From the NCBI GenBank assembly GCA_027487775.1, contig JAIYCY010000025.1, positions 397,692 to 461,691 on the forward strand: a DNA stretch of 64,000 nucleotides, written 5' to 3'. The first letter of the stretch is position 1. Each line of letters opens with the position of its first letter. Positions 32,559 to 37,958 of the stretch are shown here, piece after piece. This stretch comes from Planctomycetaceae bacterium. GTDB lineage: Bacteria; Planctomycetota; Phycisphaerae; Tepidisphaerales; Tepidisphaeraceae. The position numbers were made by a program, and so were the translations under genes. A model generated the notes under the pieces. The model did not search any database and had not been told where the DNA came from. It was given only the letters and a program-made list of their open reading frames with translations.

Positions 32559-33497
32559 ATGAGCCTATTCAACTTCCATCCACCGGTTCTGGCAGCGGAC
32601 AGCCCGCTCACGAAAGTCCTCGACCATGTTCAGGTCGGGAGTGGCTTTGCCATTGTGACCAACCACATGATTTTGATGGCGGTCACCGGATTGATCATGC
32701 TGTTGGTCTTTCCGGTCGTGGCTGCCGCGTATCGGAAGAACATGGTCCCGTCGGGGCTCGCCGGCTTTGTGGAAACGATCCTCACGTACCTGCGTGATCA
32801 AGTCTGTCGTCCACTGCTAGGCGATGCCACTGATAAGTTCATGCCTTATCTGTGGACGATGTTTTTCTTCATTTTGATCAACAATCTTCTGGGTCTTCTG
32901 CCGCTTTACGAGCTCACATACTTTTTGACCAAGCCATTCGGGCTTTATCCGGTCTATGGGACCGCAACGGGGAATTTGGGCGTGACGGGCGCGCTGGCGG
33001 TCACCGCGTTCTTTGTGATTCAGGGTTACGCGTTGAAGAAGAACGGCATCGGCGCTTATCTAAGCCATCTCACCGGTGGGACCCCGCCGATCCTCTGGCC
33101 GATCATGGTTCCGATCGAATTGCTTGGATTGTTCATCAAGCCGTTCGCGTTGACGATGCGTTTGTTCGCCAACATGTTTGCAGGCGGGCTGGTGCTGAAG
33201 CTGATCATGGGTTTTGTGCCGCTCGCATTGGTCGGGATGGGTCTGGCTGGAGCGATTGGGGTTGCGATCCCGGTGATTTTTGCATCGGTGGCTTTGACGA
33301 TGCTGAAGCTTTTGGTGGCGTTGCTGCAGGCATTCATTTTCGTCTTCCTGACCACGATCTTCATCGCCCAGATGGCAGAGAGCCATGACCACGATCATGA
33401 CCATGAACACGGTCACGAACATGGTCACGGCGAAGGTCACGGTCAAGGCGAAGCCCACGGGCATGCCAAGGCCGGACATGCCAAGGCGGGCCACTGA
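32559..33497 (+). CDS. atpB: ATP synthase F0 subunit a, with His-rich C-terminal tail
   Basis: Subunit a forms the two proton half-channels beside the c-ring. The 312-residue protein has the expected transmembrane helices and the essential Arg in FALTMRLFANMFAGG. The late helix has LLVALLQAFIFVFLTTIF. After the last helix comes a tail of about 37 residues with 13 His alternating with Asp, Glu, Gly and Lys (33383-33497), not part of the normal family. It could bind metal ions or buffer protons; that is inference. ATG 32559 begins MSLFNFHPPVL. Confidence 0.95.
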   Translation: MSLFNFHPPVLAADSPLTKVLDHVQVGSGFAIVTNHMILMAVTGLIMLLVFPVVAAAYRKNMVPSGLAGFVETILTYLRDQVCRPLLGDATDKFMPYLWTMFFFILINNLLGLLPLYELTYFLTKPFGLYPVYGTATGNLGVTGALAVTAFFVIQGYALKKNGIGAYLSHLTGGTPPILWPIMVPIELLGLFIKPFALTMRLFANMFAGGLVLKLIMGFVPLALVGMGLAGAIGVAIPVIFASVALTMLKLLVALLQAFIFVFLTTIFIAQMAESHDHDHDHEHGHEHGHGEGHGQGEAHGHAKAGHAKAGH

Positions 33498-33751: not shown

Positions 33752-34093
33752 ATGAAGAAGATTCTCGCGTTGGCCCTCCTGGCCATGCTCGTGCTGCCCG
33801 CCATCAGCTTTGGTCAGACCGCCGAAGCCGGCGCAGCAGCGGTTGATTCGATCAACACCAGTTTCAGCGGCAAGGGCCTTGCGATGCTTGGCGCTGGCAT
33901 CGGCATTGGTCTGGCGGTTCTGGGTGGTGGCAAGGGCATTGGCATGATCGGCTCGCACGCCGTCGACGCCATCGCCCGTCAGCCTGAAGCCGCTGGCGAC
34001 ATCCGTCAGGGCATGATCCTGACCGCCGCCTTCGTGGAAGGTCTTGGTCTGGTCGGCGCGGTGTTCTGCCTCGCCTTCGCATTCCTGATCTGA
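33752..34093 (+). CDS. atpE: ATP synthase F0 subunit c, with signal peptide
   Basis: The c subunit forms the rotating ring. The 113-residue product is longer than usual (about 80) because of an N-terminal cleavable signal-like segment (MKKILALALLAMLVLPAISFGQ). The hairpin follows: a Gly-rich first helix (AMLGAGIGIGLAVLGGGKGIG), the polar loop with AIARQPEA, and the second helix with the ion-binding Glu in AAFVEGLGLVG. The residues after this Glu do not match the sodium-type ligand set, so protons are the likely coupling ion. AAGGAA eight bases upstream supports ATG 33752. Confidence 0.94.
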   Translation: MKKILALALLAMLVLPAISFGQTAEAGAAAVDSINTSFSGKGLAMLGAGIGIGLAVLGGGKGIGMIGSHAVDAIARQPEAAGDIRQGMILTAAFVEGLGLVGAVFCLAFAFLI

Positions 34094-34216: not shown

Positions 34217-34825
34217 ATGAAACTCAATCGCCTCGCCCAAGTCTGCTGCCTCACCGTCGCGGTCACTGCAAGCCTCGCTCTGGCTGCCGATCCAGCTTCG
34301 GATCACTCCAGCGACGCTGCAGCGCCGAGCTTCATCACGCAGACGCTCGTCGCGGGCGTGACTGCGATGATCATCTTTTTGCTCTCGTTGATCATCCTCG
34401 GCAAGTTTGCGTGGAAGCCGATCATCGCGGGCCTGAACGGGCGTGAGCAGCGGATCCGCTCGGACATCGACCGCGCCGAGCAGGCCCGCGTGCAGGCCGA
34501 GGCGCTGCTCAGTAACTACAAGAAGCAGGTGGCCAACGCCGACGCCGAGGTTCGCGAGAAGCTGGCGACGGCACAAAAGGACGCCGAGGCCGTGGCGGCG
34601 CGATTGAAGATGCAGGCACAGACGGAGATCGAAGACATGAAAAAGCGTGCCGCCGCGGACATCGATTCCGCCCGCATCGCAGCGATCGCGCAGCTCCGTC
34701 AGGAGTCCGCCCAGCTCGGTACCACGATCGCTTCGAAGATCCTGAAGCGCAACATCACCGACGTCGATCAGGCCGAGCTCATTCGTTCCAGCCTCGAAGA
34801 GCTCACCAGCACCGCCCGCCGTTGA
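34217..34825 (+). CDS. atpF: ATP synthase F0 subunit b, with signal peptide
   Basis: Subunit b is the peripheral stalk. The 202-residue protein has an N-terminal signal-like stretch (CCLTVAVTASLALAADP), a membrane helix (TAMIIFLLSLIILGKFAW) with the KPI motif of b subunits, and a long charged coiled coil rich in Ala, Glu, Gln and Arg. A GGAG eight bases upstream supports ATG 34217. Presence of a signal peptide in both b and c parallels other planctomycete ATP synthases, but that parallel is from memory. Confidence 0.92.
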   Translation: MKLNRLAQVCCLTVAVTASLALAADPASDHSSDAAAPSFITQTLVAGVTAMIIFLLSLIILGKFAWKPIIAGLNGREQRIRSDIDRAEQARVQAEALLSNYKKQVANADAEVREKLATAQKDAEAVAARLKMQAQTEIEDMKKRAAADIDSARIAAIAQLRQESAQLGTTIASKILKRNITDVDQAELIRSSLEELTSTARR

Positions 34826-35534: not shown

Positions 35535-37055
<1,521 letters not shown>

Positions 37056-37101
37056 TCGCAAGAGCGGCATCGGCAATCACAGCCGCATCATCCCCTCGAA
37101 C

Positions 37102-37140
37102 AAGTGCCAGTGGAGATCATCCGCTGGCACTTCTTCATTT
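37102..37140 (+). terminator. Rho-independent-like terminator after atpA
   Basis: AAGTGCCAG (37102-37110) and CTGGCACTT (37124-37132) form a perfect 9-bp stem with a 13-nt loop, followed by the T-rich TTCTTCATTTCTTC. It lies 46 bp after the atpA stop and marks the end of the atp operon. Confidence 0.72.
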
Positions 37141-37193
37141 CTTCACGGCGTTGCCACTTTCCTCTTTTCGCCTGCGCGGGTACACCATCGGGC

Positions 37194-37958
37194 GTGAGTC
37201 TTTCTGAAGTCGAACTATCTGTCGTGATCCCTTGCTACAACGAGCGGGAAAACATCCCAACACTGCTCGTCCGACTCGAAGCGACACTCGTTCCGACCGG
37301 AAAGTCCTTTGAAGTGTTGATCATCGACGACGGCAGCACCGACGGAAGCGGGCCGATGCTGGATGAGGCTCGAGCGTCGCGTTCCTGGCTTCGTGTGATT
37401 CGCATGCGGAAGAACTCGGGTCAGAGCGCCGCATTCGAGTGCGGCTTTTCCGCCGCCCGAGGGAAGATCATCGCCACCATCGACGCCGATCTGCAGAACG
37501 ATCCCGAGGAGATCCCGCGTCTGGTTCCGATGCTGGATGAGCATGGCGTTGACATGATCACAGGTTGGCGACGCGATCGGAAGGACACACCCTTTCGTCG
37601 CTGGCAGTCGCGGCGTGCCAACGCCATTCGCAACTGGGTCACCGGCGAGACCGTGAACGACTCGGCCAGCAGCTTGAAGATCTACCGGGCCCATGCGATC
37701 AAAGGCCTTCGTCTGTTTCGCGGAGCGCATCGGTATTTTCCGACGCTGGTCAAAATGCGCGGTTACAAGGTGCACGAAACCCCCGTCAAGCACAGCCCGC
37801 GTTTCGCCGGCACTGCCAAGTACGGCTTCGGCAACCGGGCGTGGGTCGGCATTTACGACATCATCGGCGTGCGCTGGATGAAGAAGCGTTTCATCCGCTA
37901 TCAAGCCGACGAAGTCTCTCTTGAGCCTGACGCAAGCCATCACATTGAGTCCCGCTGA
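37194..37958 (+). CDS. Family 2 glycosyltransferase (dolichol-phosphate mannosyltransferase-like)
   Basis: The 254-residue GT-A fold enzyme has SVVIPCYNERENI at the N-terminus, the nucleotide-binding IDDGSTDGS and the metal-binding DADLQNDPEEI. It matches the DPM1/GtrB group that moves sugars onto polyprenyl phosphate, but lacks the C-terminal transmembrane pair of GtrB-like proteins. GTG 37194 is preferred because the GT core begins eight residues later. The open frame to 37104 adds residues across the terminator. Confidence 0.85.
   Translation: MSLSEVELSVVIPCYNERENIPTLLVRLEATLVPTGKSFEVLIIDDGSTDGSGPMLDEARASRSWLRVIRMRKNSGQSAAFECGFSAARGKIIATIDADLQNDPEEIPRLVPMLDEHGVDMITGWRRDRKDTPFRRWQSRRANAIRNWVTGETVNDSASSLKIYRAHAIKGLRLFRGAHRYFPTLVKMRGYKVHETPVKHSPRFAGTAKYGFGNRAWVGIYDIIGVRWMKKRFIRYQADEVSLEPDASHHIESR

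Follow-up and report, generated by a model that had tools for sequence, protein, structure and literature searches.

The histidine-rich tail of subunit a

Within the window, a stretch of 64,000 nucleotides from a Planctomycetaceae bacterium (contig JAIYCY010000025.1), genes for subunits a, c, and b of an F1Fo ATP synthase lie on the forward strand, and subunit a (AtpB) ends in a His-rich tail.

32559 to 33497, + strand: atpB, F1Fo ATP synthase subunit a, 312 residues (match to PF00119)
33066 to 33068, + strand: codon of His170 in the H4–H5 loop (SHLTGG), aligned to the P. aeruginosa metal ligand aGlu182
33384 to 33494 (stop codon to 33497), + strand: His-rich C-terminal tail of AtpB, residues 276–312, 13 His of 37
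33752 to 34093, + strand: atpE, subunit c, read as H+-type from its sequence
34217 to 34825, + strand: atpF, subunit b, without a His-rich N-terminus (no more than 1 His per 20 residues)

The PF00119 profile covers residues 37–269 of AtpB (E = 2.4e-53; 181.6 bits against a curated cut-off of 33.9), and helix 5 has its conserved Arg in the RLF.N motif, R201, which is invariant in a five-sequence alignment. A search of its own genome gave this gene as the sole match. At the helix-2 carboxylate, the adjacent atpE carries VEG and not ES or ET, which we take to mark an H+-type subunit c.

The tail begins after the last helix and is composed of 13 His, 9 Gly, 5 Ala, 4 Glu, 3 Asp, 2 Lys, and 1 Gln; its position and His count are as the initial annotation had described them. 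Against a His background of 2.1% in the window (49 non-overlapping ORFs), the binomial probability of at least 13 His per 40 residues is 1.1e-12, and the second-densest 40-residue stretch among the same 49 ORFs holds 8 His. His-rich frames also occur among the neighboring ORFs (53 of 613), but these are mostly long ORFs resembling antisense frames of the operon and were excluded as background. The His codons of the tail are mixed (7 CAC and 6 CAT; 198 CAC and 219 CAT in the whole window) and the DNA repeats within it are short and imperfect, which together rule out a recent repeat expansion. A frame error or spurious ORF is ruled out by homologues with tails at the same place, and the tail is no unique oddity, since the AtpBs of relatives have such tails too. 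An AlphaFold model of the window AtpB and four relatives was poor (pLDDT 52.7).

Distribution and age of the tails

Homologues were drawn from 81 genomes (69 with a match), an overlapping search of 244 own-phylum genomes (at least 237 with a match), 30 chosen genomes (30/30), 118 genomes of the phylum of a Bacteroidetes record (118/118), and four named records. Part of these matches, 263 AtpBs, was analyzed: 169 from the window's phylum, including the window itself, and 94 from the Bacteroidota sample. The sequences were picked from among the matches and the chosen genomes and are not a random draw; four duplicates (L064, L175–L177) and six loci from pattern searches (L208–L213) were left out before analysis. 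A tail is called long if it extends at least 14 residues past the last helix, and a segment is called dense if it has 5 His in 20 residues; the threshold for a scan of subunit b was 4 His in 20.

At least one tail His is present in 165/169 own-phylum and 94/94 Bacteroidota-sample AtpBs. At least four are present in 44 of the 169 and 53 of the 94, and in 44 and 50 of these, respectively, the tail is long; tails as dense as that in the window occur in 39/94 Bacteroidota-sample AtpBs. The initial annotation had supposed that subunit a normally lacks such tails, a belief that these counts overturn and that a published case from an ice worm, cited in PMC12796488 and discussed below, also contradicts. 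The long tails range from 14 to 62 residues, and their length is not conserved. Most own-phylum tails are short, with HPEH, APEH, or a similar motif as their last residues; the E. coli and PS3 subunits end in SEEH and SHDH. These ordinary C-termini resemble that of the window AtpB in combining His with acidic residues, but they hold about two His within 6–10 residues, compared with 13 in 37.

In a quick tree of the 169 own-phylum AtpB cores, from which loop and tail columns were omitted, a dense His/Asp/Glu-rich tail is found in 27/27 members of the window's clade (SH-aLRT 96). The tail is thus old in this lineage, and the alternative raised at the outset, that close relatives are tailless and repeat expansion alone produced the tail, does not hold.

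Three alternative cytoplasmic sites

Members of the window's GTDB family that lack a long tail have a His-rich insert in the H4–H5 loop instead (for example, GTYGHHGHHEEHS...), with a loop of ∼80–140 residues as against ∼28. In a separate clade, inserts rich in His lie where the H2 region ends. Among the 169 own-phylum AtpBs, dense segments are located in the C-tail in 41, the H4–H5 loop in 18, and the H2 region in 10 (8 by script, plus L161 and L165 by eye, which the alignment had put in H1/N-terminus). Hence 69/169 have a dense segment at one of the three sites, and none of the 169 has two of these sites occupied together; random placement, with phylogeny ignored, expects 7.3 doubles and yielded zero in 0 of 20,000 draws. 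The 100/169 without any dense segment are counted against the proton-buffer reading set out below. Parsing of states on the tree gives 8 changes for the tail, 5 for H4–H5, and 3 for H2 (starred branches force 4, 3, and 2), indicating that dense His segments have been altered repeatedly within the phylum.

By the known topology of subunit a, all three sites are predicted to face the cytoplasm. No dense segment was found in the periplasmic H3–H4 or H5–H6 loops of the 169 own-phylum AtpBs. Inserts of at least 8 residues contain 26.0% His in H1–H2/H2 and 12.7% in H4–H5, on the cytoplasmic side, versus 4.1% in H3–H4 and 2.3% in H5–H6, on the periplasmic side; at least four His are found in 1/12 H3–H4 inserts. 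Residues of the C-tail and H4–H5 loop are placed at the cytoplasmic half-channel in PMC12796488. Each of the three sites is predicted to be at the inner mouth of the proton channel, which suggests that the segments have a common role there, in the handling of protons or of metal ions. Several exceptions count against this pattern: the AtpB N-terminus, periplasmic by topology, is His-rich in L198, L033, L165, and L173, and it passes the dense threshold in L065 and L168 (and in L037, although there upstream of the likely start). Likewise counted against it are the His-rich N-termini of subunit b, predicted to be periplasmic, in 5/7 scored genomes of the H2-site group (AtpF was found at 121/123 loci, of which 87 were scored).

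The spacing of His differs between the sites. Own-phylum tails are enriched in the HxH pattern, Bacteroidota tails have it at chance level, and the loop segments, in which spacings of 3 and 4 are enriched, have it below chance. Throughout the His-rich segments, Cys is absent and acidic residues are common; composition is conserved and spacing hardly at all. Judged from sequence, a single fixed metal site would explain a composition kept with such loose spacing less well than would a disordered buffer or antenna for protons.

Neutral drift of low-complexity sequence, by which an insertion-tolerant terminus and loops vary in length from a short ancestral His-containing end, would account for the imperfect internal repeats, the spread of long tails from 14 to 62 residues, the absence of the tail from many relatives, and the short His motifs that already end the E. 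coli and PS3 subunits. We nonetheless consider it improbable, given retention of the tail throughout a deep clade (27/27), the use of both His codons, the conservation of composition without sequence, and the avoidance of periplasmic loops by His-rich inserts.

Proton- and sodium-type enzymes

A neighboring subunit c allowed 141 AtpBs to be typed by the ES/ET motif, with ES or ET at the helix-2 carboxylate presumed to denote a Na+-type enzyme; this assigns 122 to the H+-type and 19 to the Na+-type. At least one tail His is present in 122/122 AtpBs beside an H+-type c but in only 7/19 beside a Na+-type c (Fisher 6e-13, phylogeny ignored), and at least four are present in 52/122 versus 1/19 (Fisher 0.0016, phylogeny ignored). 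Several genomes of the Bacteroidota sample combine, within one cell, a His-tailed H+-type AtpB and an almost His-free Na+-type AtpB. The associations with c type and with His170 (see below) span few independent lineages, and the Na+-type sequences come mostly from one divergent clade. Exceptions among these sequences are L160, with four tail His, and L045, L047, and L061, which end in His. The contrast between the two types supports, but does not prove, a proton role for the tail.

Several genomes of the window's phylum and of the Bacteroidota sample have a second, divergent AtpB, which lies beside an ES-type c in L150, L151, L155, L160, L274, L276–L287, L292, and L293 (for L285, no c was found). 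It probably belongs to the alternate N-ATPase, on the assumption that the ES motif is Na+-like.

Across the window's genome, H-[DEG]-H-[DEG]-H-[DEG]-H matches a single place besides the AtpB tail, the C-terminus of a GroEL (L208, G000:C10 near 40560) that adjoins GroES and has the His-rich end GDHDHDHDHGGMDDMM. The two segments are alike in composition and share an HDHDHDH run, although protein and context are unrelated. This second occurrence, together with a composition resembling that of known His-rich metal-binding tails, is what might be expected if the AtpB tail were a cytoplasmic Ni/Zn sponge that an abundant membrane protein happens to carry and that plays no part in the motor. Such a store would not account for the restriction of the segments to sites predicted at the channel mouth, nor for the difference between H+-type and Na+-type enzymes, which in several genomes is seen inside one cell; we judge it very unlikely.

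Position 170 and the metal site of P. aeruginosa

Four metal ligands, aGlu182, aHis186, aAsp287, and aHis289, are named for P. aeruginosa subunit a in PMC12796488, which also reports that mutating them lowers ATP synthesis. In a phmmer alignment, His170 of the window falls on aGlu182 and aHis186 has no partner; thus, one of these two loop ligand positions is occupied by a metal-capable but different residue and the other is unmatched. The ESHDH sequence at the root of the tail offers candidates for aAsp287 and aHis289, although the alignment leaves the register unfixed.

Position 170, which was spotted by eye ahead of counting, is His in 80/80 dense-tail AtpBs (41/41 own-phylum and 39/39 Bacteroidota-sample). 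By comparison, it is His in 23/92 own-phylum sequences lacking both a dense tail and a loop insert and in 44/55 of the remaining Bacteroidota sequences. Among all core columns, this one shows the strongest association (Fisher 8e-17, 129 sequences without a loop insert); the loop-insert class was excluded because hmmalign places this column unreliably there. On the tree, the association between His170 and the tail comprises only 4 supported independent pairs and is not significant after correction. His at this position suggests a contact between the H4–H5 loop and the tail root, where the two could hold a metal.

These observations bear on a reading in which tail His and Asp residues and His170 bind a Zn-like transition metal; as in P. 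aeruginosa, the metal would order the cytoplasmic half-channel and make it narrower, with the distal tail only raising local metal affinity. The alignment of His170 to aGlu182, its presence in all 80 dense-tail proteins, the HxH enrichment in own-phylum tails, and the drop in ATP synthesis on mutation of the P. aeruginosa ligands (PMC12796488) all speak for it. The unpartnered aHis186, the lack of conservation in tail length and His spacing, and the shifting of His-rich segments among three sites do not, and a metal role alone predicts no contrast between H+- and Na+-type enzymes. We therefore regard this reading as somewhat unlikely. The P. aeruginosa structure shares with the window AtpB a C-tail that meets the H4–H5 loop at the cytoplasmic half-channel and ligands that are acids and His, but its tail is short and ordered with four named ligands, whereas that of the window has 37 His-rich residues (PMC12796488).

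A possible proton buffer at the half-channel

Of the roles imagined for the tail when it was first noted, metal binding and proton buffering both remain live as putative functions. The reading that we prefer, tentatively and as something just short of probable, is of an acidic His segment, disordered but functional, that acts as a proton buffer or relay at the mouth of the cytoplasmic half-channel, possibly holding Zn. By homology, the tail would extend from the last helix of subunit a on the cytoplasmic side, next to the half-channel through which protons would exit the c-ring during ATP synthesis. Its His residues, with a pKa near cytoplasmic pH and set amid Asp and Glu, could accept protons at the channel mouth and pass them on, and with such a local buffer or antenna the motor would not be held back by the release or uptake of protons. 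The ESHDH root probably folds back to His170, much as the P. aeruginosa tail packs onto the H4–H5 loop, and a Zn-like ion may be held between them. We infer the disorder of the tail, the proton relay, any bound metal, and any effect on rate. With less confidence, we propose that H+-driven bacterial enzymes have repeatedly evolved a movable His buffer, placed at one of three cytoplasmic sites of subunit a in each enzyme and largely missing from Na+-type enzymes, as a general tuning of proton exit.

A precedent exists in ATP6 of the ice worm Mesenchytraeus solifugus, whose His-rich C-terminal extension is reported to have increased ATP synthesis in E. coli (Dunkley, Shain, Klein, FEBS Lett 2025, as cited in PMC12796488). 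As described there, that extension resembles the tail of the window (13 His in 37) in being His-rich and in following the last helix at the C-terminus of subunit a. It is, however, mitochondrial and from one animal, whereas the kind found here is bacterial, widespread, and has alternative loop sites, and the two are likened by description. The tail may work as the ice-worm extension may; it does not match the strict ligand set of the P. aeruginosa cap. In the literature searched, which lacks most subscription papers, neither bacterial tails like these nor a pattern of three sites turned up. The pattern is new here, and the tail itself has precedents in the ice-worm extension and the P. aeruginosa metal cap.

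How protons pass between bulk water and the half-channels, and whether this passage limits the motor, is still debated. Enzymes whose His segment lies in the C-tail or in one of two loops, together with those that have none, form a natural series that allows swap and deletion tests, including tests for a widespread bacterial counterpart of the ice-worm gain of function.

Neighboring genes

Subunits c and b of the window each start with an apparent signal peptide (33752–33820, MKKILALALLAMLVLPAISFG, and 34217–34290, MKLNRLAQVCCLTVAVTASLALA, respectively), as do those of many relatives. In L152, L154, L159, L169, and L171–L174, which belong to the H2-site clade and its neighbors, an apparent signal peptide is followed by a His-rich N-terminus of subunit b. 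The next long ORF after atpA on the same strand (37055–37958) resembles, by eye, a family 2 glycosyltransferase; atpG, atpD, and atpC are thus not directly downstream.
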